Below, in pieces: positions 14,965 through 34,673 of a DNA stretch of 34,953 nt. The notes below the pieces were generated by a model. The model did no database searches. It was not told the DNA's origin and saw only the letters and a list, made by a program, of their open reading frames with translations. How positions within the stretch are numbered: position 1 is the first letter of the stretch; each line of letters opens with the position of its first letter. Source of the DNA: Oscillospiraceae bacterium (GTDB lineage Bacteria > Bacillota > Clostridia > Oscillospirales > Ruminococcaceae); NCBI GenBank assembly GCA_017536405.1, contig JAFXHL010000027.1:1-34953 (forward strand), written 5' to 3'. A program made the translations under genes and the position numbers.

Positions 14965-15825
14965 TTGGATTTCTGGTTTTCTGAAATGCATACAAATAAT
15001 GTCAAGATGTCGATAAGAGTTGAAAAACAGCTTTTCAGCGGAACAAGCGATTTTCAGAGAATTGACATTTTTGACTCTGTCGAATTCGGAAGATTCTTAA
15101 CCTCAGACGGTAGCGTTATCTTTTCCGAAAAAGACGAATTCACATATGACGAAACGATAGTACATGTTCCGATGGCGGTTCACCCCTCGGTTAAAAAAGT
15201 TCTCGTAATAGGCGGTGGTGACGGTGGCGTTGCGAGAGAACTTTCATACTACGACGAAATCGAAGAAATCGATGTTGTTGAACCCGATGAACTTTTCGTA
15301 AATGTATGTCGTGAATTTTTCCCCGATAACGCAAAAGGTCTTGACGACCCACGTGTAAATATTTTTTACAGAGACGGGCTTCGTTTTCTCCGCGGAAAAC
15401 AGGATCAGTATGACCTTATCATCAACGACTCGACAGACCCCTTGGGCTATACCGCAGGTCTTTTCACAAAAGAATTCTACGGAAGCTGTTATAAAGCACT
15501 CAAGGAAGACGGCATAATGGTTTATCAGCACGGAAGTCCTTTCTTTGATGTCGATGAAGAAAGTTGCAGAACGATGCACAGAAAAGCATTCAGAAGTTTC
15601 CCGATAAGCAGGGTTTATCAGGCACATATTCCTACCTGCCCTTCAGGATACTGGCTTTTCGGATTTGCATCTAAAAAATATCATCCTCTTCGTGATTTCG
15701 ACCCTGTCCGTTGGGAAAAACGCGGTCTTAAAACATGGTATTATTCAGCAAATCTTCACAGAGGTGCATTTATGCTTCCTAAATATGTTGAAGATTTACT
15801 CATAGAAGAAGAAAAGAAAAACTGA
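14965..15825 (+). CDS. speE: Spermidine synthase homologue with altered motifs
   Basis: A 286-residue aminopropyltransferase-fold protein. Full-length family features are present: VLVIGGGDGGVARELSYY, LDDPRVNIFYRDG, NDSTDPLGY, LFTKEFYGSCYKALKEDGIMVYQ and AHIPTCPSGYW. It starts at TTG 14965, which has an ideal AGGAGGG site (14951-14957) 7 nt upstream and aligns with the family N-terminus. Several usually invariant positions differ. EFxYHE is EFTYDET (His to Asp), the GPA/GPG after DxTDP is GYTAG, and VEID is VEPD. The catalytic aspartate of DSTDP remains. No speD (AdoMet decarboxylase) is in the operon, which also carries the rival carboxyspermidine route. The enzyme may therefore use another donor or acceptor; classical spermidine synthase is the default. 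Confidence 0.85.
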   Translation: MDFWFSEMHTNNVKMSIRVEKQLFSGTSDFQRIDIFDSVEFGRFLTSDGSVIFSEKDEFTYDETIVHVPMAVHPSVKKVLVIGGGDGGVARELSYYDEIEEIDVVEPDELFVNVCREFFPDNAKGLDDPRVNIFYRDGLRFLRGKQDQYDLIINDSTDPLGYTAGLFTKEFYGSCYKALKEDGIMVYQHGSPFFDVDEESCRTMHRKAFRSFPISRVYQAHIPTCPSGYWLFGFASKKYHPLRDFDPVRWEKRGLKTWYYSANLHRGAFMLPKYVEDLLIEEEKKN

Positions 15826-15846
15826 TTTTAAAGGAGATAGAAAATT

Positions 15847-17100: not shown

Positions 17101-17103
17101 GTT

Positions 17104-18249
17104 ATGGAAAAGAAAATTCTTGATATATTAAAAAGTGCACCCACCCCCGCGTATGTAATCGACGAAAAGAAGATAAGAGAAAATCTCTCTATTCTTAAAA
17201 GTGTCGAAGAAAAATCGGGTGCTAAGATACTACTTGCGCAGAAGGCTTTTTCAGCCTTCTCGCTTTATCCTACGATCGCTGAATATGTAAGCGGAACAGC
17301 TTGTAGTGGTCTTTATGAAGCTAAGCTCGGCTTTGAAAATATGGGCAAAGAGAACCATGTTTTTTCCGCTGCTTACAGAGAAGATGAAATGGACGAAATA
17401 ATTTCTTATTGCGGACATATCATCTTAAATTCAAAAAATCAGCTTTATAAATACAGAGATAAAATTCTTTCTGCGGGAAAGAAGATAGGTCTCAGAATAA
17501 ACCCCGAATGTTCAACGCAGGAAGGTCACGAAATCTATGACCCCTGTTCTCCTAAATCAAGACTCGGAATAACACTTAAAAACTTCGCTGAAATCGACCT
17601 TACAGGCGTTTCGGGAATACATTTTCATACCCTTTGCGAACAGAATTCCGACGACCTTGAAAAAACTCTTTCGGCTATCGAAGAAAAGTTCGGAAAATAT
17701 CTTTATGATATGGAGTGGATAAATTTCGGTGGCGGTCATCATATAACAAGAGATGATTACGACATTGAAAAACTCCTCTTATGCATAAAGAGAGTAAAAG
17801 AAAAATACAATCTCGAAGTGTTTATAGAACCCGGTGAGGCGTTTGCTTTAAACGCAGGTTATCTTGTAACAACCGTTCTCGATATAACAGAAAACGATAT
17901 GCCCATAGCAATTCTTGACACATCGGCTGCTTGTCATATGCCCGATGTTCTCGAAATGCCCTATCGCCCTCCCCTTTATATGTCGGGTGAAAACGGCGAG
18001 AAAAAATATTCATATCGTTTGGGTTCACAGACCTGCCTCGCAGGAGATGTTATCGGCGAATACAGTTTTGATGAGCCTCTTAATATAGGCGACAAGCTCA
18101 TCTTTATGGATATGGCAATCTATTCTATGGTAAAGAATAATACCTTCAACGGAATGCCTTTACCCGATATTGCGATACTTCGTGAAAACGGAGAATATGA
18201 AATTATAAAGCGTTTTTCATATAATGACTTCAAGGAGCGTTTATCTTGA
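17104..18249 (+). CDS. nspC: Carboxy(nor)spermidine decarboxylase
   Basis: A 381-residue fold-III PLP decarboxylase (alanine racemase-like barrel). The Schiff-base lysine is in LAQKAFSAF, about residue 47. Other family motifs are SGIHFHTLCEQ, WINFGGGHHIT, IEPGEAFALNAGYLV and GSQTCLAGDVIGEY, which holds the substrate-site cysteine and aspartate. It removes the carboxyl group of carboxyspermidine to give spermidine. The start is 3 bp after the dehydrogenase stop with little ribosome site, so it likely depends on translational coupling. Its stop overlaps the TTG of the next gene. Confidence 0.92.
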   Translation: MEKKILDILKSAPTPAYVIDEKKIRENLSILKSVEEKSGAKILLAQKAFSAFSLYPTIAEYVSGTACSGLYEAKLGFENMGKENHVFSAAYREDEMDEIISYCGHIILNSKNQLYKYRDKILSAGKKIGLRINPECSTQEGHEIYDPCSPKSRLGITLKNFAEIDLTGVSGIHFHTLCEQNSDDLEKTLSAIEEKFGKYLYDMEWINFGGGHHITRDDYDIEKLLLCIKRVKEKYNLEVFIEPGEAFALNAGYLVTTVLDITENDMPIAILDTSAACHMPDVLEMPYRPPLYMSGENGEKKYSYRLGSQTCLAGDVIGEYSFDEPLNIGDKLIFMDMAIYSMVKNNTFNGMPLPDIAILRENGEYEIIKRFSYNDFKERLS

Positions 18250-19364
18250 TTAAAATAAGTTCACTCCCTAAAAACGACGGCTTTTATATGCCCGCCGAAT
18301 ATTCAAAGCATGACGGCACAATTCTTATCTTTCCCGAAAGAAAAGGCTCATGGCCACACAATGCCGTTCCTGCTGTAAAGACATTTACTGAAATTATAAA
18401 TGCCATTTCAGAAGATGAAAAGGTTTTTCTTATAGTCAGCGATAACACCGAAGAAAAGGCGAAAGAAATATTTTCAGAAAATAATAATGTCATCATAACA
18501 AAAATCCCTCAGGATGATGCCTGGGCAAGAGATACTGCGCCGACATTCGTTACCGACGGAAAAAGTGTACGCGGTATAAACTGGCGTTTTAATGCCTGGG
18601 GCGGAGATTTTGACGGTCTTTATAAAGACTATGATAAAGATGACAGACTTGCCGTTTCTTTTATGGATTCTATCGACTGTGATTATTATGATGCATCGCC
18701 TTTTGTTTTGGAAGGCGGCTCGATTCATTCTGACGGCGAAGGAACAATTATGACAACCGAAAGCTGTCTTTTAAGCGCGGGAAGAAACCCTGACCTTTCA
18801 AAAGAAGAAATTACAGAAACATTATGTAAATATCTCGGCGGAGAAAAGGTTTTATGGCTTCCCCGCGGAATTTACAACGATGAAACAAATGAACATGTTG
18901 ACAATGTCTGCGCTTTTATAGGTCCTGCCGAGGTAGTTCTCGCCTGGACAGATGACGAAACCGACCCTCAGTATCCTCTTTCAAAGGCTTGTTATGACTA
19001 TCTTTCATCAGAAACCGACGCTAAGGGAAGAAAAATAACAATCCACAAACTTCCCATTCCGAAAACACCCGTATGCGTTTCAGAAGAAGATATGGAAGGC
19101 TATGTTTTCGAAGAAGGCGAAGATGTAAGAGATGTGGGCGAACGCCTTGCGGCATCTTATGTCAATTTCTATTTTTCAAATAATTCAGTAATTCTCCCGC
19201 AGTTTTCGGGTGAAAACGAAGAAAGCGACAGACTTGCTGTTTCTATAATGGAAAAAGTATGCAAGGGAAGAAAAATCGTTCCCATAAAGGCAAGAAATAT
19301 CATTGTCGGTGGTGGAAATATCCACTGTATCACTCAGCAGATACCGAAAGGAGCGTTGAAATAA
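18246..19364 (+). CDS. aguA: Agmatine deiminase
   Basis: A 372-residue guanidino-group-modifying enzyme that hydrolyses agmatine to N-carbamoylputrescine and ammonia. Family motifs: FYMPAEYSKHDGTILIFPER near the N-terminus, DDAWARDTAPTF, NWRFNAWGG, VLEGGSIHSDGEG, and the catalytic cysteine in GGGNIHCITQQ at residue 361. The start is a TTG (18246) overlapping the nspC stop as TTGA. AAGGAG (18232-18237) lies 8 nt upstream and there is no alternative start in the right place. Its length is normal for the family. Confidence 0.95.
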   Translation: MIKISSLPKNDGFYMPAEYSKHDGTILIFPERKGSWPHNAVPAVKTFTEIINAISEDEKVFLIVSDNTEEKAKEIFSENNNVIITKIPQDDAWARDTAPTFVTDGKSVRGINWRFNAWGGDFDGLYKDYDKDDRLAVSFMDSIDCDYYDASPFVLEGGSIHSDGEGTIMTTESCLLSAGRNPDLSKEEITETLCKYLGGEKVLWLPRGIYNDETNEHVDNVCAFIGPAEVVLAWTDDETDPQYPLSKACYDYLSSETDAKGRKITIHKLPIPKTPVCVSEEDMEGYVFEEGEDVRDVGERLAASYVNFYFSNNSVILPQFSGENEESDRLAVSIMEKVCKGRKIVPIKARNIIVGGGNIHCITQQIPKGALK

Positions 19365-20243
19365 ATGCGTAAAGTTACCGTTGCGGCAATTCAGATGAAT
19401 AACAGTAGAATTGTCAGTGAAAACATAGCAAAAGCCGAAAAACTCGTAAGAGAAGCGGCAGAAAAGGGTGCACAGATAATTCTTCTGCCCGAACTTTTTG
19501 AAAGACAGTATTTCTGTCAGGAAAGAAGATATGACTACTATGATTTTGCAAAGAAAACCGAAGAAAATGATGCGGTAATCCATTTCAGAAAAATCTGTAA
19601 GGAGCTTTCTGTTGTAATGCCCATAAGTTTTTATGAAAAAGACGGCAATACACTTTTCAACTCTGTTGCAGTAATCGACGCCGATGGAGAAATTCTCGGC
19701 GTTTACAGAAAAACACACATCCCCGATGACCACTATTATCAGGAAAAATTCTATTTCACATCCGGCAATACAGGTTTTAAGGTATGGGATACAAGATACG
19801 GAAAAATCGGCGTAGGAATCTGCTGGGACCAGTGGTTTCCCGAAACAGCAAGAGCGATGGCACTTATGGGTGCTGAACTTATCTTCTACCCTACCGCAAT
19901 AGGCTCTGAACCCATCCTTGAAAGCGACAGTATGCCTCATTGGAGAAGGGCTATGCAGGGACATTCGGCGGCTAATATCGTTCCCGTTATTGCGGCTAAC
20001 AGATACGGAAAAGAAGATGTTACCGCAACAGAAGAAAACGGCGGACAGAATTCATCGCTTATCTTCTATGGTTCATCATTCATAACCGATGAAACAGGCG
20101 GAATTCTTTCTTCTGCCGAAAGAGAGGGCGACGCAGTCCTCACAGAAACCTTCGACCTTGACGATATAAGGGAAAAACAGCTTTCATGGGGAATTTACCG
20201 TGACAGACGCCCCGAAACATATAAGATAATTACCGAAAGATAA
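19365..20243 (+). CDS. aguB: N-carbamoylputrescine amidase
   Basis: A 292-residue nitrilase-superfamily amidohydrolase that converts N-carbamoylputrescine to putrescine, CO2 and ammonia. The catalytic triad is visible as Glu43 in LLPELFERQYF, Lys116 in YRKTHIPDDHYYQEKFYF and Cys153 in VGICWDQWFPETARAMAL. The ATG directly abuts the aguA stop, and AAAGGAG lies inside the end of aguA. It is the last gene of the operon. Together with ADC, AguA and the two carboxyspermidine enzymes it closes the arginine-to-spermidine route. Confidence 0.95.
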   Translation: MRKVTVAAIQMNNSRIVSENIAKAEKLVREAAEKGAQIILLPELFERQYFCQERRYDYYDFAKKTEENDAVIHFRKICKELSVVMPISFYEKDGNTLFNSVAVIDADGEILGVYRKTHIPDDHYYQEKFYFTSGNTGFKVWDTRYGKIGVGICWDQWFPETARAMALMGAELIFYPTAIGSEPILESDSMPHWRRAMQGHSAANIVPVIAANRYGKEDVTATEENGGQNSSLIFYGSSFITDETGGILSSAEREGDAVLTETFDLDDIREKQLSWGIYRDRRPETYKIITER

Positions 20244-20421: not shown

Positions 20422-21513
20422 ATGAAAAAGATAATTATCATAGCATTGTCTTTTGTTCTTGCACTTATAATCGGAATTTTCGTTATCAATGTAAGCGAAA
20501 AGGAAACCGATGTTACCGAAGAGACAACGAGAGTGGGGCTTATTCTCAATGGCCCCAGAAACGACGGAAGCTGGAGTCAGTCTCATTATGAAGCACTCTG
20601 CGCTACCGCTAAAGAAATAAATTTACAGATAATCTGCAAAGAAAATATCTCCGCAGAAAATGCGCCCGATGTTATAAGAGAACTTGTTATGAGCGATTGC
20701 AAGGTAATCGTTGCAAACTCTGCTATTTTCGGTGATGCTGTAACATATGCCGCAAAGGCATATCCCGAAATATATTTCTTTCACGCATCAGGCACTAATT
20801 TCGATAAGAATTTATGCACATATTTCGGAAGAATGTATCAGATACGCTATCTCACAGGGATAGTCGCAGGGCTTACAACAAAAACAAACGAAATAGGTTA
20901 TGTTGCCGCTATGCCCGTTTCTGAAGTAAACAGAGGTCTTAACGCATTTACCTTAGGAGTAAGAAAAGTAAATCCCGAAGCAAAAGTTTATGTCCGCTGG
21001 ACAGATTCATGGAGCGATAATGAGGCTGCCGCAAAAGCATCAGAACAACTGATAAAAGAACATAACATAGATATTCTCGCTATGCATACAGACTCTCTGG
21101 AGCCTTTACGTGTCGCTGATGAAAATAATATTTACAGCATAGGTTATAACCTTGAGAACAAAGAAAAATTTCCCGATAGTTATCTTACCGCGGCTGTATG
21201 GGACTGGAAACAGTTCTATACCCCACAGATACTCAGATGTCTTCAGGGAAAATTCGAGGGAAAGAATCATTGGGCAGGTCTTGAAACGGGAATGATAAAT
21301 ATCGCCGATATTTCTCCTATGATAAATCCGAAAGCGAAAGAAAAGGCTATGGAAGAATACGAAAAAATGAAGAACGGAACATTTGATGTTTTCTATGGTC
21401 CTGTTTATGATAATGAAGGAAATTTGCGTATAGCAGAGGGCGAAAGTATGACCGATAATGCTATGCTCAATGATTTTGACTGGTATGTCGAGGGGGTATA
21501 TGTTGATGAATAA
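20422..21513 (+). CDS. BMP-family (PnrA/Med-like) ligand-binding protein 1
   Basis: A 363-residue extracytoplasmic protein of the basic membrane protein family, periplasmic-binding type 1 fold, which in known cases binds nucleosides. After an N-terminal membrane segment (~4-24) without a lipobox cysteine come [59 protein letters not shown] and LTAAVWDWKQFY, all family hallmarks. Absence of a lipobox suggests a signal anchor. No ABC permease or ATPase is adjacent; instead a paralogue and a hybrid sensor kinase follow with overlaps. A sensory rather than transport role is therefore inferred. The ribosome site is weak (AAAGAAAGAAG). Confidence 0.88.
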   Translation: MKKIIIIALSFVLALIIGIFVINVSEKETDVTEETTRVGLILNGPRNDGSWSQSHYEALCATAKEINLQIICKENISAENAPDVIRELVMSDCKVIVANSAIFGDAVTYAAKAYPEIYFFHASGTNFDKNLCTYFGRMYQIRYLTGIVAGLTTKTNEIGYVAAMPVSEVNRGLNAFTLGVRKVNPEAKVYVRWTDSWSDNEAAAKASEQLIKEHNIDILAMHTDSLEPLRVADENNIYSIGYNLENKEKFPDSYLTAAVWDWKQFYTPQILRCLQGKFEGKNHWAGLETGMINIADISPMINPKAKEKAMEEYEKMKNGTFDVFYGPVYDNEGNLRIAEGESMTDNAMLNDFDWYVEGVYVDE

Positions 21514-22603
21514 ATCAAAAAGAATTCTTATAATATCGGCGGTTGCGGTTTTTCTGCTTGTAATCTCCGTTATTATAGTTTCGGGAAAGGATATATTCCC
21601 CGATAAAAAACATACAATAGGTCTTATTCTTACAAGCACAAAAGACGACAACGGCTGGAACAGTATGCACTATGAAGGCGTTTTTTCCGCCTGTAAACAG
21701 CTTGACGCAAAACTCATTGTAAAGGAAAATATCCCCGAAGGCACGGGCGACTGTGAAAAGGCGATAGAAGAACTTATCGATGACGGCGCTGAAATGATTA
21801 TCCTTTCAAGCTATTCATATCCTTTAGAGGCAAAGGAAATCATCGACAGACATCCGACAATATCATTCTACGGAATTTCATCCGAATACACCTCAGACAA
21901 TATGACATCTTATTTCGGAAGAATGTATCAGGCGAGATACCTCTCGGGGATTGTTGCAGGAATGACAACAGAAACAAACGAAATAGGCTATGTTGCAGCT
22001 ATGCCCAATAATGAGGTAAACAGAGGAATAAACGCTTTTACTTTAGGCGTTAAGAGTGTCAACCCCGATGCGAAAGTTTATGTTGAATGGACAGATTCAT
22101 GGGACGACGCAGAAAAAGAAAAGGAAGCAGTAAACAAAATCCTTTCAGAAACAAAGGCGGATATTCTGACATATCATCAGAATCAGCATAATGTCGCTGA
22201 AATCGCCGATTCTATGGGTATATGTTCGATAGGCTACAATAAAGCTATCGAAGGATTATCAGAAAAATATCTTACTGCTGCCGTATGGAACTGGGAATCG
22301 CTCTATTATCAGATTATAAGAGAATTTATGCTTGGAAAAGCAAACTCTGTTGACCATCACTGGTATGGCATAACAGACAGCGAGGTTATCGGATTATCTG
22401 AATATTCCCCTCTCGTTTCTTCGGAAACAAAAACAGCGGTTGAAAATGCAAAGTCAAAATTTACTTACGGAAACTACATCTTCTCGGGCGAAATCTATGA
22501 CAACGAAGGAAATTTGAGATGCGAAGAAGGCGAAATGATAAGCGATGATGTTCTTCTCGCAAGAATGGACTGGTATGTTGACGGGGTGGTGGTTTCAGAG
22601 TGA
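21506..22603 (+). CDS. BMP-family (PnrA/Med-like) ligand-binding protein 2
   Basis: A 365-residue paralogue of the preceding gene, clearly a tandem duplicate. [58 protein letters not shown] and [13 protein letters not shown] align throughout. The N-terminus is a membrane anchor (~6-26) without a lipobox. The ATG at 21506 is chosen because AGGGGG (21491-21496) is 9 nt upstream. It overlaps the previous gene by 8 nt and the kinase by 4 nt, so all three are translationally coupled. Residues at the presumed ligand site differ from paralogue 1 (for example MHTDSLEP versus YHQNQHNV), hinting at different ligands or a heteromeric sensor. Confidence 0.88.
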
Positions 22604-25116
22604 AAAAAGCCATAACGAAACAGGTCGTTGTCAGAACAGCAACCCTCATTTTAGGCGGGCTTGCGGTTTTAGGAATCATCTGTATAATCATGTGGTTCAA
22701 ACTGCGTGAGATAACAACCAGCCAGGTTGAAAGCCATGTTTCAGGATATGGCGCTATGGCGGCGCAGATAATAGACAATCATCTCAACGACGAAATAGCC
22801 TCTCTTGAAATGATGACCTCTGTAATCAATAAAAAAACAGGAATACCCGATTATGATTTTGAAAATGAATATGGCATTTCCTATGGTGTTATGAAGATTA
22901 CGGGTGAAGCGACATATGGGCAACAGATTGACTTTTCTGAATCAGATGCATTTTTTGAAGCGCTCCACGGAAATCCTTCGGTAAGTTCTGATTCAGAAAA
23001 AACTCTTTTTGCCGTTCCTGTCTATAACAACGGAAATGTAAAATTTGTTTTCTATAAACTCTGTGATAACGATGTTCTCGCGGAACATGTAGACCTTGTC
23101 TGCTATGGCGGAATAGGCGAATGTATGCTCATAGACATCGACGGAAACATAGTATTCCGTTCACAGAATGCAAAGGATAAAAAAGAACTCTCTTTCTATA
23201 CATCTGAAGAAAAGACAGAAACTATGGAAGGCATAAGAGAAACTATGAATGTAAATATTTCTGCGGCAAAATTCTGTCCTTATGATGAAACGGTTATTTT
23301 CGCTTCAGAAACAAACTATCCTAACCTCTATCTCATAGGATATGTTCCCTACGCAGCACCTGCGGGTGATATAAAACTCATCGTTCCCCTTGTTTTATGG
23401 ACATTCGGTCTTTTATGGGTTCTTATCGTTATAGTTTTCGTTTATCTTATGAGTGCAGAACAGAAAGTTCAGCAGAGCGAAGAACTCAGACAGGCAAAAA
23501 TTTCTGCCGAAAAGGCAAACAGAGCAAAGAGTGATTTTCTTGCAAATATGTCACACGAAATAAGAACTCCTATAAATGCCGTTATCGGTATGAATGAGAT
23601 GATTTTAAGAGAGTCAAAGGAGGGCAATATAAGAGAATACGCAACAAATATCGATGCCGCCAGCCACAATCTCTTAGGAATCATAAATGATATATTAGAC
23701 TTTTCAAAGATTGAATCGGGTAAAGTTGATATCGACCTTCAGGATTATAAACTCAGTTCACTTTTAAGGGATATGACAAATATGATAAGCCTTAAAGCAG
23801 AACAGAAAAATCTTGTTTTCAATGTAAATGTAAATGAAAACACTCCCGATTTGCTTTATGGCGACGACCTCAAAATCAAGCAGATTATTTTAAATCTTCT
23901 TACAAATGCTGTGAAATACACTCACAAAGGAAGCGTGACGCTTGATGTAGGTTTCAGCAAATCAGAAAACGATGATGAAATAATGCTTGATATCGCGGTT
24001 TCTGATACAGGTATCGGCATAAAGGAAGAAGAGATGTCATCGCTTTTTGAAAACTTCAGCCGTTTTGATATATCTGCAAACAGAAATATCGAAGGAACAG
24101 GCTTAGGGCTTGCGATAACATATAACCTTGTAAGAATTATGGGCGGTGAAATAGCCGCTGAAAGTGAATACGGAAAAGGCTCTGTATTTAAAATTTCCGT
24201 TCCGCAGAAAGTAACGGGCGAAGATGTTATCGGCACTGAATGGGATAAGATTTCCGAATCCGAAACTCCTGTTTTAAAATCAGAATTCATAACACCCGAT
24301 GCGTCAATCCTTATTGTTGACGACAACAAGATGAACCTTATGGTTGCTAAAAATCTTCTTAAACATACAAAGGCTAAAATAACTACCTGTATGAGTGGTG
24401 AAGAAACGATAGAACTTGTCAAGGAAAATAAATTCGACATCATTCTTCTCGACCATATGATGCCTCATATGGATGGTATCGAAACTCTTAAAATCCTTAA
24501 ATCAATGGATGGCAACAAGAGTTCCGCTGCCGCTGTCATAGCACTTACAGCGAACGCTGTTTCGGGCGTTAAGGATATGTATATCGCAGAAGGTTTTGAC
24601 GACTACATAAGCAAGCCTGTAACAGGAAGTATGCTTGAAGAAAAAATGATAAAATTCCTTTCTGAAGAAAAAATCATCTATACAGAAAATAAGGACAGCG
24701 AAGAAAAAGCTTCTGAAACAAAGAATAATGATGTTTCAGAAAGCAGTAATATTTCTCCTGTCTTTGATTCAGATATCGGCAAGACATATCTTGGCAACGA
24801 TGATGAACTCTATGCAGAAATACTCGGTATGTTCTGTGAAATGCATGGCGAAAAATCAGAAGAACTCGAAAAGTTTGTTTCCGAAGAAAACTGGGCGCAG
24901 TATACCGTTTCTGTCCATGCGCTGAAATCAAATGCTCTTAATATAGGCGGAAAGAAACTTTCGGAACTTTGCCTGAAACTTGAAAAAGCAGGAAAGAAAA
25001 TCAAGGCAGGCGAAGAAATAAAGGAAAATATTTCTTTCATAAAGAAAAATCATTCCGATATGATAAGCCTTTTCAGAGAAACAGTAAACCTCGCAGAAGA
25101 ATATCTAAGAAAATAA
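22600..25116 (+). CDS. Hybrid sensor histidine kinase with receiver and Hpt domains
   Basis: An 838-residue membrane kinase. Order: membrane segment ~12-34, extracytoplasmic sensor ~35-255 (Cache-like, [15 protein letters not shown]), membrane segment ~258-283, and a coiled linker. The HisKA domain follows with phospho-His319 in [14 protein letters not shown]. The HATPase has [18 protein letters not shown] and [10 protein letters not shown]. The receiver has DDNKMN and phospho-Asp618 in [11 protein letters not shown]. The Hpt domain has His773 in [13 protein letters not shown]. The start is GTG 22600, overlapping the previous stop as GTGA. The phosphorelay ends at the Hpt domain and no DNA-binding response regulator is present, so its output partner is encoded elsewhere. 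The two preceding BMP proteins are likely co-sensors. Confidence 0.93.
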
Positions 25117-25499: not shown

Positions 25500-25554
25500 A
25501 GTTATTCCTCCTTGTGTTTTTTAAAATTATAACGCAGTTTTATCAAAAAGTAAA
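25498..25554 (-). promoter_or_regulatory. Promoter/leader of the tautomerase gene, repeat copy 1
   Basis: Minus strand: TTTACT (25549-25554), 17-bp spacer, TATAAT (25526-25531), then AAGGAGG and the ATG. Positions 25504-25531 match 26680-26707 at 27 of 28 bases, so the -10 box, leader and ribosome site are duplicated. Confidence 0.7.
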
Positions 25555-25558
25555 TATT

Positions 25559-26674
25559 CTATCTGAAATCAAATTCAGCAAAATCCTCATAATTTTCAAA
25601 AAATACATTTCCTTCTCTTCTCCATGCGATATTTTCTTTTATTATTCTCGCAGGATTTCCTGCTATACTACAGTTTTTCGGGAATTTTTTATTCACAAAT
25701 GTATTAGCCCCTACTATGCTGCCATCTCCTATATCACATCCGCTGAACAACATTGATCTGATGCCTACCCAAACATGTTCTCCGATTATAGTTGTTTTCC
25801 CTTCTATATTCAGATTTTTTCCTGTTTCCATGTCAAACATATTATGGCCATTTCCTGCCCTTACTGAAATATTGCTGGAAAACATACAGTCTTTCCCTAC
25901 AAATATCCTGCTGTTTTGCGCAGAAATCATCTGACCCTCTACACATATAGTCACATTTTCGGATATAATCAATTCAGAATTTTTATATGCCCATAAAAAC
26001 ATATATTTTGTCGGTCTGAAACAAGCATATATTCTGAAATTATTTTTTACAACCAGATTACTTGAATATGTTGACATAATAATACAACGACCTTCGGATC
26101 TGAAATTCTTTCCTATATGGATTTTACTGTTTGTTTCAGATAATATCTCACTCTTTTCATCAAATCCGGAACAATCTTCAATAACCGCTTCGGAATTATC
26201 AGAAATAGTAATTTTTGTTTCTTTAAACATACAATCCTTACCTATTGTCAGTTTACCTGCATTTTTTAGCCTTATATCGATTTTATATGTTTGTTCCGCA
26301 TTGTATTCATTGCCATATATATCGTTATAATGAATGCATCCGCCGTCAAGAGTAATCTCTTTACAAGGGTACCAGTAATCTTCAAATTCATTGTAATTAT
26401 TTTCTTTGAAAAATGATATAATATCATCGTATGTATTGAGTAATCCCACATAAACAAAATAACTGTTTTCTTTTATTATTTCTCTGCTGTATACGGGCAA
26501 AGAATTGAATGTATTGTTTTTATCATAATCACGATCTATGTATCCTACAACATTTATTCCGTTTTCTCTTAAAAAGCCAAGGATATCATCATTTCTTTCG
26601 CAAGCGCCCCATATCAGAACTTTATTGCCATTTTTCGTTATACTTTCTATGAGAATTTCTTTGTTGTGAAGCAT
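25559..26674 (-). CDS. Left-handed beta-helix (hexapeptide) acyltransferase with N-terminal nucleotide-type domain
   Basis: A 371-residue protein. Residues ~1-90 look like a Rossmann-type half (KVLIWGACERNDDILGFL, INVVGYIDRDY), as in sugar-modifying PglD-like or nucleoside-sugar enzymes. Residues ~125-365 are imperfect hexapeptide repeats ending in the classic acetyl-CoA site IIGEHVWVGIRSMLFSG, IGDGSIVGANTFV and SIAGNPARII, which indicates a CatB/WbbJ-type O- or N-acetyltransferase. His in AGNGHNMFD is the probable base. The ATG at 26674 follows AAGGAGGAA (26681-26689); an upstream in-frame ATG at 26779 lies across the neighbouring terminator and is rejected. The gene is more AT-rich than its neighbours and is bracketed by a duplicated leader, suggesting acquisition. 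A role in surface-glycan acetylation is likely but unproven. Confidence 0.8.
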   Translation of the reverse strand: MLHNKEILIESITKNGNKVLIWGACERNDDILGFLRENGINVVGYIDRDYDKNNTFNSLPVYSREIIKENSYFVYVGLLNTYDDIISFFKENNYNEFEDYWYPCKEITLDGGCIHYNDIYGNEYNAEQTYKIDIRLKNAGKLTIGKDCMFKETKITISDNSEAVIEDCSGFDEKSEILSETNSKIHIGKNFRSEGRCIIMSTYSSNLVVKNNFRIYACFRPTKYMFLWAYKNSELIISENVTICVEGQMISAQNSRIFVGKDCMFSSNISVRAGNGHNMFDMETGKNLNIEGKTTIIGEHVWVGIRSMLFSGCDIGDGSIVGANTFVNKKFPKNCSIAGNPARIIKENIAWRREGNVFFENYEDFAEFDFR

Positions 26675-26730
26675 AGGTAATTCCTCCTTGTGTTTTTTTA
26701 AATTATACCACATATATCCACTCAAAACAA
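26672..26730 (-). promoter_or_regulatory. Promoter/leader of the acyltransferase gene, repeat copy 2
   Basis: Minus strand: TTGTTT (26725-26730), 17-bp spacer, TATAAT (26702-26707), then AAGGAGG and the ATG. The 28-bp stretch 26680-26707 repeats 25504-25531 with one mismatch. Confidence 0.65.
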
Positions 26731-26768: not shown

Positions 26769-28964
26769 TTAGTCCTCAATCTGTTTTCCTAAAAATTGCG
26801 CTGCCGCCTGAACGAGACTGAGATGAATATCCGTTGCTGTCGAATCGGGGCTTGGCGCTAAAAAAGCGACCGCACCCGTAACATCGCCCGATGTTAAAAT
26901 CGGTGCGCAGGCTATTGCGGAACGGTCTATCCCCTCAACAGGGAAAACCCTCTGTTCACCGCTTTTATAGATATAGGTCTTTCGCTTTTCTAATATTTCT
27001 TCAGGCCCTGCTGAAACCCTGCGTTCGTTGAATTCTCTTTTCTGAACGCCTGAAACTGCAATAACATGGTCTCTGTCAAACACAACAACGGGGCAGGATG
27101 CGAGTTTTGTTATGACGTCAGCCACAGCCACAGCATTCCCCGACATTTCACCTATCGCAGAATATTTCTTGAAGATGACTTCCCCGTCGGCACTTGTGTA
27201 AATTTCAAGCGGGTCACCGCCACTGATAACATTGACAGTATAAGCCTTTGCAGGACGGTTTTTCGGCCTGCATATATAGCGTGTTTCAAATGAGTTACCT
27301 ATACTGCCAAACTGAAAATTTACGGTTTCCTCTCTTTCGGGCAAAGTCCCCGTTTTTAAAAGTGTGTCAATATCGGATTTCAGTTTTATCTCGATATTCT
27401 TGTTTTCATAGACATCTATTCTTTCTATTATAAGAGAGATATCCGACTTTTCAAGTCTGTCTTTTTTAAGAATATCATCGAAAACATCAAAGACAGTTTT
27501 AGACATTCTTGCGATTTCAACTATCGAACTTCTTTTTCTGATATTTTCCTTTATCTGATTTTTGCAACCGTTTATTCTGTTTATAGCGTCTTCTTCGAGT
27601 TCTCTGTATGTTTCCTCGATAAGTTCTTCGTTATCGGGATTTTTCATAAGTTCACGGATTTTCTGCTTTTCGATCGCTTTCAGTTCTTCTTTCGCACTGT
27701 TAAGTTGCTTTTCAAGGATTTTTATTATGTTGTCGCTTTCTTTAACAGTCTGTTCCTCGCCCGAAACTGTATTCTGAAGTTTATCAATCATATCTTCACA
27801 GTTGTTTTTGACAAGCCTGATATAATCCTTTACAACAGCGTCAAGAAAATCAAGGGTTGTGTTGTGTGCCGTGCAGGCATTTAGTCCCCTCTTGTGATAA
27901 GAACCACAGATATATGACGGAGTGAGTTTTATTGAACTTCTGCTGAACATCGGTTCACCACAGTCCCCACAGAATAACTTACCCGTGTATGGAGTGGGAT
28001 ATTTTTTAACCCCTCTGTAAGAGGTTGTTGTTCTTTCCTTGAGTTGTTCCTGTGTGTCAAGAAAAAGTCTGTCATCGATTATCGCTTCGTGGTGCTTTTC
28101 GATAACTATATGGTCGCTTTCATCAACCTTTGTGTCTTTTCCCTTGATAGTTCTTCGGGTGTATTTGTGTCCCCTGAATGTTCCTATATAATAATCGTTG
28201 CGAAGTATTCCCTGAACGGTTATGATGCTCCATTCATTCTTTACCTTGCGCTTGTATTCCTTTTCGGATTCTTCGGCGCGTTCTCTTTCTTTCGCCCTTG
28301 GGGTAGGTATATTCTTTTCGGTAAGATAATTTGCTATCTTCTTATATCCCCAGCCCTCAACGGAATAGAGCCTGAAAATTTCTTTTACAACCTCTGCCTC
28401 GTCGGGAACAATTTCGATTATGTTCTTCTTCTGATTTTTTATGATATATCCATAAGGAACAGCACAAAGCCATTCCCCCGCTTTCTGTTTCATATCAATA
28501 ACACTGCGGACTTTCTTGCTTGTTTCGGTAACGGGCATTTCATTGAAAAGAAAACGGATCGCAATGTTTGTCCACTCATCATTTGTGGGATAATCAATGC
28601 CATCCATAATGCTTATAATGCGTATTCCCTTATCTCTCATCTTTTCAAGTTCGTTAAGACCCAAACTTGTTCTTCTCGAAAAACGGGAGAAATCCTTTAC
28701 AACAAGAATTCTTGATTTTCCTTCAAGGAGATTTTTTCTGAGAGTCATATAGTTCTCACGCTCTTCAAAGGTATAACCCGATTTATCTCTGTCAACATAT
28801 TCTTTAACGGTGCATCTCGGAAAATGCTGTTTTACATAAGAATTGATAATCTTGAGCTGATTTTCGATAGAGGTGTTTGAATCGCTTTCTCTCTCGGTGT
28901 CAACCGAAATTCTCGCATAGACGGATATTTCTTCCGTAAGTTGTGAATCAGCTAACTTTACCAT
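26769..28964 (-). CDS. Large serine recombinase fused to the C-terminal part of SpoVT
   Basis: A 731-residue chimera. Residues ~12-160 are a serine-recombinase catalytic domain: nucleophile Ser20 in YARIS, and VKDFSRFSRR. ~185-300 is a recombinase DNA-binding domain. ~325-365 is a zinc ribbon (CGDCGEPM, then two more cysteines). ~395-460 is a coiled coil. Typical recombinase sequence ends near 560-575. From residue 582 (GGDPLEIYTSADGEVIFKKY) to the end are 150 residues of SpoVT, a sporulation transcription factor: the second half of its AbrB-type DNA-binding domain, then the whole GAF-like domain (VVVFDRDHVIAVSG, PILTSGDVTGAV, AAAQFLGKQIED). About 30 N-terminal SpoVT residues are missing. The start has AAAGGGGA upstream and a strong promoter. 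The best explanation is an element integrated inside spoVT; a stable fusion protein is the alternative. Confidence 0.88.
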   Translation of the reverse strand: MVKLADSQLTEEISVYARISVDTERESDSNTSIENQLKIINSYVKQHFPRCTVKEYVDRDKSGYTFEERENYMTLRKNLLEGKSRILVVKDFSRFSRRTSLGLNELEKMRDKGIRIISIMDGIDYPTNDEWTNIAIRFLFNEMPVTETSKKVRSVIDMKQKAGEWLCAVPYGYIIKNQKKNIIEIVPDEAEVVKEIFRLYSVEGWGYKKIANYLTEKNIPTPRAKERERAEESEKEYKRKVKNEWSIITVQGILRNDYYIGTFRGHKYTRRTIKGKDTKVDESDHIVIEKHHEAIIDDRLFLDTQEQLKERTTTSYRGVKKYPTPYTGKLFCGDCGEPMFSRSSIKLTPSYICGSYHKRGLNACTAHNTTLDFLDAVVKDYIRLVKNNCEDMIDKLQNTVSGEEQTVKESDNIIKILEKQLNSAKEELKAIEKQKIRELMKNPDNEELIEETYRELEEDAINRINGCKNQIKENIRKRSSIVEIARMSKTVFDVFDDILKKDRLEKSDISLIIERIDVYENKNIEIKLKSDIDTLLKTGTLPEREETVNFQFGSIGNSFETRYICRPKNRPAKAYTVNVISGGDPLEIYTSADGEVIFKKYSAIGEMSGNAVAVADVITKLASCPVVVFDRDHVIAVSGVQKREFNERRVSAGPEEILEKRKTYIYKSGEQRVFPVEGIDRSAIACAPILTSGDVTGAVAFLAPSPDSTATDIHLSLVQAAAQFLGKQIED
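27205..27245. other. Recombinase/spoVT junction, candidate attachment site
   Basis: On the minus strand the coding sequence changes from recombinase-type to SpoVT-type around GTTATCAGTGGCGGTGACCC (27211-27230). SpoVT homology begins at GGC GGT GAC (from 27221). The crossover core of the putative element should lie at or just before this point. The partner site with the spoVT 5' end is not in the window. Confidence 0.55.
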
Positions 28965-28997: not shown

Positions 28998-29026
28998 ATT
29001 GTATCATAAAATAAGTAGTTTGTCAA
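28998..29026 (-). promoter_or_regulatory. Promoter of the recombinase-spoVT gene
   Basis: Minus strand: TTGACA (29021-29026), 17-bp spacer, TACAAT (28998-29003), 33 bp before the ATG. It is a vegetative-type promoter inside the putative element. Confidence 0.75.
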
Positions 29027-29095: not shown

Positions 29096-29650
29096 TTATC
29101 GTATACTCCAAAGAATGCTATCGATTTTCTTTACACTTGATATATGCTTATAATCAGGCATCACACGTTCAAATGCTTCGATACACTCTTTCGCTTTATC
29201 TGTTTGCAAGAAATCTGCATACCACTTTTCCATATCGGCATAAAGTGCGATGGCATTTGATAATCGTTCTTCTTTGGTTGCACCGACCAATTCCATATTC
29301 AGATTCTGAACCACATATCTGTCCCAAATTGGTTTGTCGGGAAATATTGTCGCAAGCATCTTGCTTGAAAATGATGGTTCAATGTTTCCTGTGTGTTCAT
29401 ACAAATGTGTCAGAATACTTGCAAATGTTGGTGTGCTACCCTTGACACTCTCGAAATGATCGTAGTAAACCTTTCGCCACGTTTCGTTTCTTCTGACTAT
29501 GTAAAATCCATTGAATGTTCTTTGAAAATCGGTATCCGTAGACACATCAGTCTTTTTCACTTGTTCCATAATGAATTGATATTTATCAAGGCCCATACTT
29601 GATGCTAAGCGTTCTTGAAAAATCTTGTTGACATCAAAGTTTATGTCCAT
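29096..29650 (-). CDS. Hypothetical protein, possible DNA-glycosylase-like fold
   Basis: A 184-residue soluble protein that I cannot name. It is largely alpha-helical and has no signal peptide or membrane segment. Conserved-looking stretches are FNGFYIVRRNETWRKVYYDHFE, then HLYEHTGNIEPSFSSKMLATI and DKPIWDRYVVQNL. The last two faintly resemble the substrate-pocket region of OGG-like helix-hairpin-helix proteins (SK...PIWD), but no HhH hairpin is obvious, so this is only a suggestion. The start ATG 29650 is preceded by GGAGGTG on the minus strand. It has its own terminator and lies within the putative integrated element beside the recombinase. Confidence 0.65.
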   Translation of the reverse strand: MDINFDVNKIFQERLASSMGLDKYQFIMEQVKKTDVSTDTDFQRTFNGFYIVRRNETWRKVYYDHFESVKGSTPTFASILTHLYEHTGNIEPSFSSKMLATIFPDKPIWDRYVVQNLNMELVGATKEERLSNAIALYADMEKWYADFLQTDKAKECIEAFERVMPDYKHISSVKKIDSILWSIR

Positions 29651-30118
29651 TGTCTACACCTCCGAATTCAATTTTTCAGTCTGCCTTATTTCCTACAGTA
29701 TACCATAACTCTCTGACTCTATCAATAATTACCCCAACTAATTATGATAACATAAAAAATTGAAAGTTCGGGGTGATTTTAAAAATATTTTTTATAGAGG
29801 TCAGACCCACCCTTTACAAAGCGCGTATCTACGTACTTTTATACAAAAATTTTATCCACTTTTTAACCTCCCCAAAATCAAAAAATCCGTTTTCCATTTA
29901 TAAAGAGTCATCTACACCTCAATTACTATAGTATTTTTAGACTACACTAAACGCTGTTTTTAATACACATAGGGGGGTACATCGCATTCATTTTATAGCT
30001 GTGAGCGTAGTTTTCTTGTAAATCAGAGGGGTTTTTTTAAGAATCAGGATTCTGATTTCAAAAAATCGGGATTTTTAAAAAAGCGGATTTTTATATAAAA
30101 AGCATATAAGAAAAGACA
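29651..30118. other. AT-rich non-coding stretch
   Basis: About 470 bp without a convincing gene. It contains A/T runs, a short hairpin AATCAG-GATT-CTGATT (30042-30057), and G or C clusters such as TAGGGGGGTACATCGC (29969-29985 area). It may hold the end or a transfer or replication region of a mobile element, but no such site was identified. Confidence 0.4.
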
Positions 30119-30233
30119 CCACCCCGTGCCACAGAGCGAAGCTCTGTTAAGGGGCAGAGAACGTGGAGATTTATCTCCCGTTCTGTGTCACGGGTGAACT
30201 CGCCGTAAGGCGTGGGCACAAGGCACGGGGTGG
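30119..30233. other. 115-bp cloverleaf-like structured segment
   Basis: A perfect 12-bp outer stem, CCACCCCGTGCC (30119-30130) with GGCACGGGGTGG (30222-30233), encloses three hairpins. These are ACAGAGC-GAA-GCTCTGT (30131-30147); AGAACG-T-GGAGA with TCTCC-CGTTCT around TTTA (30158-30184); and CGCC-GTAA-GGCG (30201-30212). It is far more GC-rich than its surroundings. It could be a cruciform recognition site or a structured RNA. No open frame spans it, and strand is undetermined. Confidence 0.6.
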
Positions 30234-30484
30234 GTAAAAGGAAAGCGAATTTTGAAAAAAGTGCAAAAGTGCATCGAAGATATCTCTGAAAAGTGGCATA
30301 CTACTTTTATAAAGAACGGGATAATATGAAACGAAACGCGATAGAATAACCTTTAAACTAAAAACAGTAATAACCAAAATCCGATTATCAGTTCAAGGTG
30401 CATTGACAGAAAACTATGCGAAAAAGGCTGTTATGTTTCTCTGGGACACGAACGACCCGAATTTATCTTGCGAGGAAACAAGAC

Positions 30485-30847: not shown

Positions 30848-32254
30848 ATGCGTGAAGTCTTTATCGGAAGAGAAAAAGAACTTTCAGATTTAAACGAACT
30901 CTATTCACAGGACAAGTTTCAGCTTTTCGTTCTGTATGGTCGCAGGCGCGTCGGAAAGACAACTCTGCTCAACGAATTCTGCAAGGATAAGGATACCATT
31001 TTCTACTCCGCAGAACAGAGTAACAATAAGCTCAATCTTGAAAAGTTCTCATCACTCGTTTTTAACTTCTATGGAGAAAACAATTTAGAGCCTTTTTCGT
31101 CGTGGACTAACGCATTGTCATATATCGATGATCGTCAGAAAGGCAAAAAGCTTGTGCTTGTTATCGACGAGTTTCCCTATCTTGTAAAGAAAAACAAGGC
31201 TCTGCTTTCAGAACTTCAGCATCTTATCGACCATAAGCTTACAAACGGAAATCTTTTTATGATACTCTGCGGAAGTTATATGGGATTTATGGAAAAGGAA
31301 GTTCTCGGCTCAAAGAGTCCCCTTTTCGGAAGAAGAACTGCACAACTCCATATGAAACCATTTAATTATCAGACAAGTTCAAAGTTCCTTGAAGGATTTT
31401 CTGATACAGAAAAGCTTGAACTGTATGGTGCATTCGGAGGTACTCCCTTATATCTGCAACAGATAAATGCTGATGAAAGTTTTGAAGAAAACATAAAGAA
31501 ATCGTATCTTAAAGTAACTTCATATCTTTATGAAGAAGCTCTGTTGCTTCTTCGTCAGGAAGTTCAGGAGCCGGGCGTTTACAGTGCAATCATCGAAGCT
31601 ATTGCAAGCGGACACACAAAGGCAAATGAGATTTCTACAAAAATCGGCGAAGACTCTGCGAAGTGTCTGAAATATATAAAGACCTTATGCGAACTCGGAA
31701 TACTGCATAAAGAAACGCCATTCGGAGAAAAGGAATCCTCACGAAAAACAATTTACGGCATTTCTGATTTTATGTTCAGATTCTGGTATAGATATGTTTT
31801 TGCAAACAGAACTCTTATCGAAACGGGTGCACAACAAGCTGTATGGGCAAAGCGTATTGAGCCCGATTACAACACTTATATGGGACTTATTTTCGAAAAA
31901 GTCTGCACAGATTATCTATGTGTCAAGAATGCAAACGGCGAACTTCCCATACTCTTTACCTCTGTCGGAAGATGGTGGGGAACTAATCCCGTTACTCACG
32001 GTCAGGAAGAAATCGACCTTGTTGCAAATGACGGAAAAGATTATATTTTCGGTGAATGCAAATGGCGAAACGAAAAGCTCGACCTCTCCGTGCTCCGTGA
32101 ACTGAAAGAGAAAGCCGATATATTCTGTAAAAACAGAAGCAACACCTATTATGCACTCTTCTCGAAATCGGGATTTACCGAAGCCGTGATAAATGAAGCG
32201 AAATCCGATAGAAACATTATGCTCTTTGATTTGAATGAGATTATGAATTTCTGA
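30848..32254 (+). CDS. AAA-type ATPase (ATPase_2) with C-terminal DUF234 nuclease-like domain
   Basis: A 468-residue cytoplasmic protein. The N-terminus FIGREKELSDL leads to Walker A YGRRRVGKTTLL and Walker B LVLVIDEFPYL. FGRRTAQLHMKPF and YGAFGGTPLYL follow, typical of the archaeal-type ATPase family common in bacteria. A winged-helix part at ~270-310 precedes the DUF234 domain, which has EEIDLVANDGKDYIFGECKW. Its spaced Asp and Glu-x-Lys resemble a PD-(D/E)xK nuclease core. The function of this architecture is not established; roles in mobile elements or defence are guesses. Start: AAGGAGA ribosome site before ATG 30848. It is monocistronic with a consensus promoter and operator-like palindromes. 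Confidence 0.88.
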   Translation: MREVFIGREKELSDLNELYSQDKFQLFVLYGRRRVGKTTLLNEFCKDKDTIFYSAEQSNNKLNLEKFSSLVFNFYGENNLEPFSSWTNALSYIDDRQKGKKLVLVIDEFPYLVKKNKALLSELQHLIDHKLTNGNLFMILCGSYMGFMEKEVLGSKSPLFGRRTAQLHMKPFNYQTSSKFLEGFSDTEKLELYGAFGGTPLYLQQINADESFEENIKKSYLKVTSYLYEEALLLLRQEVQEPGVYSAIIEAIASGHTKANEISTKIGEDSAKCLKYIKTLCELGILHKETPFGEKESSRKTIYGISDFMFRFWYRYVFANRTLIETGAQQAVWAKRIEPDYNTYMGLIFEKVCTDYLCVKNANGELPILFTSVGRWWGTNPVTHGQEEIDLVANDGKDYIFGECKWRNEKLDLSVLRELKEKADIFCKNRSNTYYALFSKSGFTEAVINEAKSDRNIMLFDLNEIMNF

Positions 32255-32416: not shown

Positions 32417-34458
32417 TTATTCAACGCCGTTGATTTCTTTCCAGAATTCTACCAAGTTTTTATCAAATACGAAATGATAATGTTCGGGAGCATACCAATC
32501 AGCACCTTCTTGTTCATAAGGATACAAATCTGCAAATCCTCCGGTATACGAACCGAATACCCAGGGAACATCATCGCCTTCATACATATTTATTTTATCT
32601 GCTACGTATGCATTTCTTGCTTCTAAACTATGAATTGGTACATTACCATCTCTTTCGAAATTCCAACCCATATAATTACCGCCGAAGTAACCGAATTCAT
32701 TTACAATAAATCCGACACCATGCTTTTCAGCTGTTTCTTTAATAAGTGCATAAGAACCAAGATTGTAAGGGACTATATTACGGGTTGCTTCAGCATCGAT
32801 TACATTTCCGTTTTCATCAGTATATTCCACTCTAATGATTCATAAAATCCCGGGTTTTCTCTTGCATAATCCATATTTATCTCGCCGAATTTTTCAGGAG
32901 TATAATCATGATATGCAAGTGCACAACCCATTTCAGCCATTTTTTCTCCGGTAATCATCGTATGTGTTGCAACATCCGCTATTATAATTCTTCCGGGGGA
33001 TTCTTCCCATATTGCTTCTACTGTAGGTTTCCACGCCTGTGCGTAAATCTCATCAGATTCAGGGTCTGTTTCGTTTAAAAGATTAAATGACAGATACTTA
33101 TTTGAGATATTTGCATAACGCTTGGCAAATGCACGGAACCACTTTGCAGTTTCCTGCTGAACATATTCATTTCTGTATATTTCATTTGTACAATAATCTG
33201 TATCAAACCATTGATCATGAGTAGTAACTCCGGGATTTTCCAATCCTGGTGTGTCAGAGAAACATATACATATATGCATATCATATTCCATCGCCCAGGC
33301 GATTAACTGATCCATATATCTTAATTCTTCCATATTTACCATATCGGGATTATTTCTTGTTTCTTCATCAAGATTAACATTAAAATTGCTGTTCATATAC
33401 GGATCCTGGAAATGATACCAACTTGTCCAGATACGTACATAATTGAATCCTGCGTTCTTCATTTCCTGAAAATCGCGTTCATTCATGAAATTATCAAAAT
33501 TATTACTCCTTGCACCCCAAGATGCGAATTCTTTATAACATGCACATATTCCGTGCCATTCACTTGGAAGGTCATTATTACTTGCATCGGGAAGTGATGA
33601 TTCTTTGTTTATTAGTTCATCTGTAATAATAGTTGTGTCATAAGTACCTATATCTTCAATACCCACATACTCAGGCATAGGATATAGCGATCTGTAATAA
33701 TGGAATACCATTAAAATAGCATCTTTTACAGATATTGTATCATTTTCAGGAAAAACTCCATCCTCCGGAAGTGTATATAAACGATCATAAGAAACTCTGT
33801 CATATTTAGACATAAAGTATGATGCAGCAGGCCACGAAGTCATTTGTAACTCATTGGCATTGACCATCAATTCATTTGCAAGAACAGACAAGGTTCCATC
33901 CTGTGTTAATCCCAAAGGCATACCCTGATTATCCCAATAATAATCAGCTACTACTCCGCCGATACCCAATTCTTCCCAGAGATTTTCGTGAGCACCCCAG
34001 AAATCAGACACAAAATCTCTTTCAATTCCTCTGAAATAAATCGCATCACCCTGAGCGATAATATCCGAAATATGTCCTAAAACAATAGGTTCTTCTGCCA
34101 TCCACGAAGAATCTCCTACTGAAACATAACTAACCCATCCGTCAAAATAACAGTTTGAGTTTTCGCCATATTGTAAATCGTGAGCATTTTTCAGCATTGT
34201 GGTAAATTCAAGATATGTAACATCTCTTTCCATATCTTCATACAAGGATTCATCTGCTATTCCGAGTTCTTTTGCCTGAAGAAGAAAATATTCTTCTGAA
34301 AACTCATCAATTTCCACAGGTGCAACAACCTCTTCTGTAACTGCAGTTGTTTCTGCCGGTGTTGTTTCTGCGACATCATCCGGTGCTACGGCAGGTTTTG
34401 AACAAGCCGTCATCATCATTGACACAGCAAGAAACATCGCAAAATATTTCTTTTTCAT
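32417..34458 (-). pseudogene. GH5-like glycoside hydrolase lipoprotein, single-base frameshift
   Basis: The gene encodes a secreted lipoprotein (lipobox MMTAC) with a Thr/Glu-rich linker. Residues ~60-310 contain repeat units such as AKELGIADESLYEDMERDVTY, which weakly recall S-layer homology modules. A clan GH-A catalytic domain resembling GH5 follows: FNYVRIWTSWYHFQDP, MHICICFSDTPG, and the acid/base Glu in FNLLNETDPE. The frame stops at 32800. The rest of the domain, including the nucleophile Glu in GFIVNEFGYFGG, continues in another frame (32417-32830). One missing base near 32826-32834 explains this: 2042 nt plus one gives exactly 681 codons. Start: ATG 34458 after GGAGGT. Beta-glucan or related hydrolysis is likely. 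It could be a sequencing error or a true inactivation; the stop-free second part favours a recent event. Confidence 0.8.
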
Positions 34459-34469
34459 AGATAAACCTC

Positions 34470-34529
34470 CATAAATAAAAATATAAAACACCTTTAAGAC
34501 CTGCTTTTAAATGCAGATCTTAAAGGTGT
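34470..34529 (-). terminator. Leader hairpin with T tail before the GH5-like gene
   Basis: The arms at 34488-34504 and 34513-34529 (ACACCTTTAAGACCTGC and its complement) pair with one mismatch. On the minus strand they are followed by TTTTATATTTTTATTT, directly before the GGAGGT ribosome site. It lies between the promoter and the gene, so it can act as an attenuator. Confidence 0.6.
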
Positions 34530-34547
34530 CTGTAAACTTAAAGATAT

Positions 34548-34611
34548 AAGCCGAAAAGGACAGAGTTATCCTGTCTGTCAGAATTATCCCAGACTTTCAT
34601 CGGCTTGTCAA
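34548..34611 (-). promoter_or_regulatory. Promoter of the GH5-like gene with overlapping repeats
   Basis: Minus strand: TTGACA (34606-34611), 17-bp spacer, GATAAT (34583-34588). The plus-strand sequence CAGARTTATCC occurs twice (34561-34571 and 34579-34589), the second over the -10. AAGCCGA (34548-34554) and TCGGCTT (34600-34606) are inverted repeats spanning the promoter. These are operator candidates. Confidence 0.6.
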
Positions 34612-34673
34612 CCCTTTCTTATGAAATATTTTCTAAATTATACCATAAGAAAAAAAGAAAATCAAGAGAAATC

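Follow-up and report, generated by a model that had tools for sequence, protein, structure and literature searches.

Sporulation genes that are rebuilt by the elements interrupting them include sigK, spsM, gerE and yabG, and vfbin of B. weihenstephanensis has been described as well (PMC5595907, PMC4191935, PMC5025042, PMC10747680). The known programmed elements split genes of the mother cell and are thereby retained in the spore; SP-beta is excised in the mother cell only and the prophage remains in the spore (PMC4191935). The element analyzed here is inserted in spoVT, the gene of a forespore regulator in model species, which in C. difficile depends on the forespore factor sigma-G (PMC4605598, PMC3738446). 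Such an insertion makes the rule that intervening elements leave a terminal cell only directly testable.

The spoVT element shares with the intervening elements skin, SP-beta, gin and yin a location inside a sporulation gene whose halves rejoin in frame. Gin, found in gerE of Bacillus cereus ATCC10987, is likewise a non-phage element with a sporulation gene as target, a serine recombinase, an inverted-repeat attachment site with a short core (9 bp), and an excision that rebuilds the gene (PMC5595907). Unlike the spoVT element, gin encodes three recombinases, its directionality factor is known (GirX), and its description, as read here, reports no gerE-recombinase fusion (PMC5595907). Gin is present in few strains, whereas the spoVT element was found in about 100 genomes. 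SP-beta (spsM, SprA/SprB, B. subtilis) shares a related recombinase (YokA), a sporulation-gene target and an attachment site with inverted repeats, which are of 16 bp, but it is a phage excised from a late envelope gene in the mother cell, and no tail exchange is reported in that source as read here (PMC4191935). Yin (yabG, Clostridium botulinum) is comparable in being clostridial and, possibly, in the coexistence of integrated and excised subpopulations, which yin shows in culture; it differs in being prophage-like and sporulation-timed, and in its target gene (PMC10747680).

Two further systems are relevant. SCC elements and their Ccr proteins resemble the spoVT elements in having a serine recombinase, a single conserved coding target, tandem composite arrays and a highly variable cargo (restriction-modification, CRISPR-Cas and others). 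Nonetheless, the Ccr models score far below the NCBI cut-offs for the recombinase studied here (107 vs 900 bits), and SCC inserts at the 3' end of rlmH while the spoVT element lies within its gene, at codon 32. The integrase of Mx8, a phage of Myxococcus xanthus, is of the tyrosine type, unlike the serine recombinase of the spoVT element. As in the spoVT element, the Mx8 attP is located in the integrase gene, which receives a new 3' end on integration and still specifies an active integrase (PMC6070905). Mx8 is the nearest precedent for the tail exchange described below (PMC6070905), although in the spoVT element, unlike in Mx8, what comes from the host is an entire GAF domain, sensor-like and belonging to a sporulation regulator. 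Among 5.39 million open papers, none joining spoVT with a serine recombinase was found, nor any with spoVT as an insertion target by title or abstract; subscription papers and preprints were outside the scope of both searches. The family of spoVT gene-intervening elements appears to be undescribed in the literature searched. It spans dozens of gut and rumen species, cultured isolates included, and carries defence and surface-polysaccharide cargo.

The recombinase-SpoVT fusion, its attachment sites and its native tail

The window, i.e., the whole stretch of 34,953 nucleotides that was analyzed, is contig C12 of the 1.85-Mb genome G000 (108 contigs, 98.75% complete). Its features are collected in Table 1. 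The fusion ORF satisfies the criteria for a large serine recombinase (LSR), with a Resolvase catalytic domain (residues 15-165), a Recombinase domain (187-311), a zinc ribbon (Zn_ribbon_recom, 325-383) and a coiled coil. Y16, R18, S20, R94 and R98 are among the residues of the catalytic domain that are invariant in 22 relatives, and the nearest solved recombinase to the catalytic and DNA-binding parts is YokA (PDB 9dxh/9dxd). The LSR extends from residue 1 to about 582 and is followed in frame by SpoVT from its residue ~32. An earlier note, made from the letters of this DNA alone, had read the C-terminus of the recombinase as SpoVT running without stops to its natural end, and three matches bear this out: fusion residues 606-730 cover the entire SpoVT_C profile (E 8e-31), and residues 580-730 correspond to positions 27-180 of the NCBIfam model TIGR02851 (spore_V_T) and align with residues 28-177 of the solved SpoVT 2w1t. 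The window shares 92% DNA identity with the intact spoVT of G002, a genome of the same genus, and the match ends at 27218. A chance fusion is excluded because about 100 genomes show the identical junction. The fusion is thus confirmed as real, and represents the right end (attR) of an integrative element that has inserted into spoVT. In an AlphaFold model (mean pLDDT 71.6, pTM 0.33) the GAF domain is predicted to be well folded (pLDDT 83-93) and separate, on a poorly ordered linker.

Table 1. Coordinates of the fusion, its attachment site and the rest of the element in the window
Feature	Position	Strand	Remarks
LSR-SpoVT fusion ORF	26769-28964	-	731 aa, stop-free; integrated-state form; Pfam/NCBIfam domains
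Orphan spoVT 3' part, chromosome side of attR	26772-27218	-	stop-free; GAF domain pLDDT 83-93
Recombination core GGTGACCCG	27218-27210	-	common to attL, attR and spoVT; limit of the G002 match
Inferred crossover dinucleotide GA	27215-27214	-	spoVT Asp32 codon
attP arm TGTCAATGTTATCAG	27223-27237	-	half-site of near-palindrome; other half at far (attL) end
Sigma-A type promoter TTGACA-17 bp-TACAAT	28998-29026	-	precedes recombinase; best match, 1 mismatch
Remaining element up to contig end	28965-34953		attL end beyond contig
184-aa protein, unknown	29096-29650	-	within element
Non-coding stretch shared with the G004 element	29874-30240		strong structured hairpin
ATPase_2/DUF234 protein	30848-32254	+	within element
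GH5-like lipoprotein, split	32417-34491	-	within element

At attR, TGTCAATGTTATCAGTGACGGCGACCCG is followed by spoVT; at attL, spoVT up to GGCGACCCG is followed by TTACTGATAACATTGACA. The attP is a near-palindrome of about 46 bp centred on GA and located inside the recombinase ORF, and 21 of the 24 positions of the joined consensus pair around that dinucleotide. The central GA was present in all 87 distinct attR and in 43 of 44 attL sequences. The orientation in which serine integrases insert follows the central dinucleotide. One element, that of G140, is reversed relative to the other insertions; read in the direction of the LSR gene, its core is TC.

In nearly all of the 49 attL junctions compared, the reading frame of spoVT continues into a short ORF of typically ~24 amino acids with a shared motif whose consensus is near SQTTLTWWExFCFGMLDLAKRxG. 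In G140 this native tail adjoins the 3' half of spoVT, on the opposite strand (GSPSLITLEDRFCLGISGFGERICCT). The pN/pS ratio, pooled over 14 pairs, was 0.39 in the frame of the tail vs 1.04 and 1.08 in the other two frames. Since it is low in that frame only, the tail is a genuine coding sequence under purifying selection. As attP lies within the recombinase ORF, the circular form encodes the native ~24-amino acid tail and the integrated form carries SpoVT from residue ~33. Thus, integration swaps the native tail of the LSR for SpoVT and excision swaps it back, which satisfies the criterion for an attP within the integrase gene of the Mx8 type, where integration changes the 3' end. With attP so placed, the C-terminus of this natural integrase reports its own integration state, a property of interest for recombinase mechanism and for tools.

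Distribution, mobility and coexisting alleles

Of 397 genomes sampled from the host family, 26 carry the fusion at the identical residue (23 complete and 3 cut by contig ends). Scanning of the LSR alignment against one genome per species (84,980 species) produced 502 relatives, and among the best 80 of these, from Clostridia, 76 continue in frame into SpoVT. Every fusion examined has its insertion at codon 32 of spoVT. Isolates with the fusion include Ruminococcus bicirculans 80/3, R. flavefaciens 007c and ATCC 19208, Anaerotruncus massiliensis AT3, Butyricicoccus pullicaecorum DSM 23266, Flavonifractor An100 and Eubacterium MSJ-21. Nearly every fusion genome has an orphan 5' half of spoVT. 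On contigs that contain both halves, the orphan is located 11-56 kb upstream of the fusion on the same strand, as in R. bicirculans (20.1 kb), A. massiliensis (14 kb), the single-contig genome G189 (19.4 kb) and G117 (13.3 kb); in the sister genome G004 the orphan half is on a contig separate from the fusion. The halves are undecayed, both being intact in essentially all cases, and all 18 testable pairs rejoin in frame in silico to an open SpoVT of 178-184 amino acids. No second intact spoVT was found in most fusion genomes.

These results strongly support the earlier proposal that a serine-recombinase element was inserted in spoVT with the 3' end of its recombinase gene as the junction. Besides the orphan 5' halves of the relatives, that proposal is supported by the shared core with inverted-repeat arms, the reversed element and the assemblies with mixed alleles described below. 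The uninterrupted spoVT that the earlier note proposed to look for in related genomes is present in the sister genomes G001 and G002, in synteny with the window. According to the earlier note, a complete spoVT elsewhere in the genome without an orphan 5' half, together with the same fusion conserved in many genomes at unrelated loci, would speak against insertion. The fusion does occur in many genomes, but not at unrelated loci: it is widespread yet always in spoVT because insertion has been repeated.

Composite arrays or relics at spoVT were noted in G096 (L110-L112), G420 (L124), G144 (L105) and G421. The kinds seen are additional 5' halves, each preceded by an RBS of its own, junctions resembling attP between elements, or the relic of an LSR immediately ahead of an intact spoVT; the arrays of G096 and G420 are composite, with additional 5' halves or with junctions of the attP-like kind. 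An R. flavefaciens metagenome-assembled genome, G419, has an LSR of the spoVT-inserting family whose end is not in spoVT (L167:11680-11860) together with an intact spoVT elsewhere, and may represent a relic or a second target.

The identities of the LSR and SpoVT parts are not correlated (rho 0.065, p 0.30, all pairs). The LSRs of G117 and G354 share 95% identity and their SpoVT parts 58%, while the corresponding figures for G117 and G340 are 61% and 89%. Synonymous differences in one pair of ruminant-gut species were 0.01 for LSR and 0.55 for SpoVT, and in another pair 0.05 and 0.68. As judged by these divergences, the insertions are recent and horizontally spread. The cargo varies: the G281 element carries type I restriction-modification, that of G189 glycosyltransferases and that of G354 Cas4/Cas7. 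Transfer genes are found in some elements only (a relaxase in G163 and Mob_Pre in G249), and no relaxase was recognized in the part of the element contained in the window. No phage structural genes were recognized in six fully covered elements, inspected by eye, or in the subset of window ORFs that was scanned. Seven LSR-bearing island fragments (L195-L199, L286 and L287) are filed as viruses (five, in IMG/VR) or as unverified phage records (two); nothing was found in the plasmid records searched.

Some assemblies contain both the intact and the interrupted allele. G380 combines a contig with intact spoVT, an attL contig whose start is 95 bp ahead of the junction and a contig with attR that ends 158 bp beyond it, the three being 100% identical where they overlap. 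In G445, an intact spoVT and an attR contig share an identical overlap of 99 bp. In both genomes the intact allele is the assembled main path. All four arms in G444 end at the core or 99 bp away from it, which is the branch pattern of an assembly graph; a second element at the same site is an alternative that is not fully excluded. The mixed assemblies fit the presence of integrated and excised forms in one population, although strain mixtures are not excluded, and no closed circular form was seen for any element. The unlinked divergence of LSR and SpoVT, the differing cargo and the mixed alleles together indicate that these are active mobile elements rather than relics or a single ancient fusion.

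Excision, its control and competing explanations

We consider it very probable that the window holds the attR end of an LSR-type site-specific integrative element that has codon 32 of spoVT as its sole common target, swaps the tail of its recombinase and restores the gene on excision. In the excised circle, the LSR frame would run through attP into the native ~24-amino acid tail. Integration would join the frame to spoVT, giving an LSR that bears SpoVT from residue ~33 to the end, and would leave the 5' half of the gene, now extended by the former LSR tail, at a distance of ~11-56 kb. Recombination between attL and attR would then remove the element and restore spoVT exactly. It is inferred that the native-tail LSR catalyzes integration, that the SpoVT-tailed LSR catalyzes excision, and that a small protein adjoining the LSR acts as directionality factor. 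The anatomy, the target, the in-frame restoration in silico, the horizontal mobility and the presence of both alleles in some assemblies are demonstrated by the comparisons above. The weak points are that the 5' half in the genome of the window was not found, that no circle was seen, that strain mixtures are possible and that only some elements have recognized transfer genes.

The small protein (60-90 amino acids) is encoded by an ORF that precedes the LSR in 68 of 93 loci (e.g., L165:6489-6695), with near-invariant positions W15, S49-G50, L54, L61 and N65. It had no convincing Pfam or PHROG match and no significant match in a fold search, was not found in the part of the element present in the window, and is placed elsewhere in the G004 element. 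It is inferred to be the best candidate for a directionality factor. Promoters of the sigma-A type were detected before the LSR in 22 of 83 relatives, against 4.4 in shuffled sequences, while the promoter motif of sporulation sigma factors was not enriched before either the LSR or the small ORF. The sporulation gene spoIVA was identified in all 31 genomes tested, in 28 above the cut-off, the other three matches being in genomes that are 74-91% complete. The hosts therefore look like spore formers.

Excision could be programmed, which is one of three outcomes considered in the earlier note, and rebuild spoVT on schedule during sporulation as in skin, SP-beta and gin. This would be compatible with the integrative element proposed above, to which it adds timing, and it is neither shown nor excluded; we regard it as possible, at rather less than an even chance. 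The hosts appear to retain sporulation, both halves of spoVT are intact, the small ORF could encode a regulated directionality factor, and sigma-A promoters also drive the constitutive recombinases of SP-beta and of the C. difficile skin (PMC5595907). However, the insertions seem recent and horizontally spread, so intact halves need no selection for programmed restoration, and the sporulation-sigma motif is not enriched. A pN/pS of 0.03 in the 5' halves was considered as evidence of programmed restoration and rejected, because host divergence predates the recent insertions. Moreover, if spoVT is under forespore control, as its dependence on sigma-G in C. difficile suggests (PMC3738446), excision there would strip the element from the spore, unlike that of SP-beta, which is excised only in the mother cell (PMC4191935). 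The same recent insertions, in a target gene dispensable for growth and mostly without a second intact spoVT in the genome, could instead reflect a parasite that simply abolishes SpoVT, restoration being a by-product of rare loss. We find this doubtful, as spoIVA is kept in all hosts tested, the intact allele is the main assembled path in G380 and G445, and neither half is decayed.

That the fusion is itself a selected functional protein, such as a GAF-regulated recombinase or a regulator, beyond the mere placement of attP, seems unlikely. It is always in frame, but the frame is set by the shared core and needs no separate selection, and the SpoVT part tracks the host and not the element. In favour of such a function, the GAF domain is predicted to fold separately, artificial LSR-RDF fusions alter directionality (PMC5737554), and the fused enzyme is the form of the LSR when integrated, yet the elements are mobile. 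Vertical descent of an ancient gene fusion can practically be discarded, as can an artefact of assembly: many genomes carry the fusion, but the divergences of LSR and SpoVT are uncorrelated, and orphan 5' halves, empty sites, a case in reverse orientation and finished isolate genomes all argue against both.

An extension of the proposed integrative cycle is that tail exchange is a state switch, in which the native-tail LSR integrates and the GAF domain of the host SpoVT gives the LSR that carries it a bias towards excision, or a gate on it. The direction of recombination is indeed reversed in artificial LSR-RDF fusions (PMC5737554), but we think this extension improbable on present evidence; natural control of excision by the GAF domain is speculation. 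If it were true, a sporulation sensor domain of the host would signal to the recombinase both its integrated state and the time to excise, and an integrase-effector fusion that arises naturally, through the reaction of the integrase itself, would control a forespore rather than a mother-cell gene.

The window contig and the rest of its genome

The orphan 5' end of spoVT expected by the earlier note elsewhere in the same genome was not recovered, being absent from the window contig and from the searched G000 assembly. Contig C86 holds the flank that precedes spoVT in G002, with a 95% match until ~112 bp before the spoVT start, followed by 12 kb of other genes and the contig end. Since the match ends before spoVT, the 5' half of G000 is in an assembly gap or lost. 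Positions 18069-18218 of contig C21 were considered as the orphan half and rejected, as they encode a complete 80-amino acid AbrB-like protein with a zinc ribbon. Window positions 34474-34637, which resemble the region upstream of spoVT in G001, were considered as the far flank and are read as a shared leader of lipoprotein genes.

At the DNA level, the elements of G000 and G004 share only the recombinase and ~370 bp upstream, so they were not simply inherited whole. The shared non-coding stretch, located just upstream of the recombinase in G004 (L024:2907-3270), is 70% identical over ~370 bp and 86% over 103 bp, and contains a hairpin of 141 nt (-73.9 kcal/mol). No Rfam family was matched in the element, this stretch included. 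Conserved in two elements of the genus, it is possibly an RNA or a transfer origin. The GH5-like lipoprotein consists of two overlapping ORFs, possibly due to a frameshift or a pseudogene.

Outside the element, a hexapeptide acyltransferase gene of ~1.15 kb (25532-26680) directly after the spoVT stop is missing in G002, which is syntenic in other respects and has ~26 bp between the flanking matches. An Rfam match to the SpF59 sRNA (ldcC RNA) at 13224-13282 lies just before a decarboxylase gene that is part of an apparent polyamine cluster (13462-20243). The region 20422-25116 encodes two tandem related lipoproteins similar to BMP-type binding proteins and, after them, a large histidine kinase that includes receiver and Hpt-like parts; comparison with G002 makes the repeat between the tandem lipoprotein genes visible.
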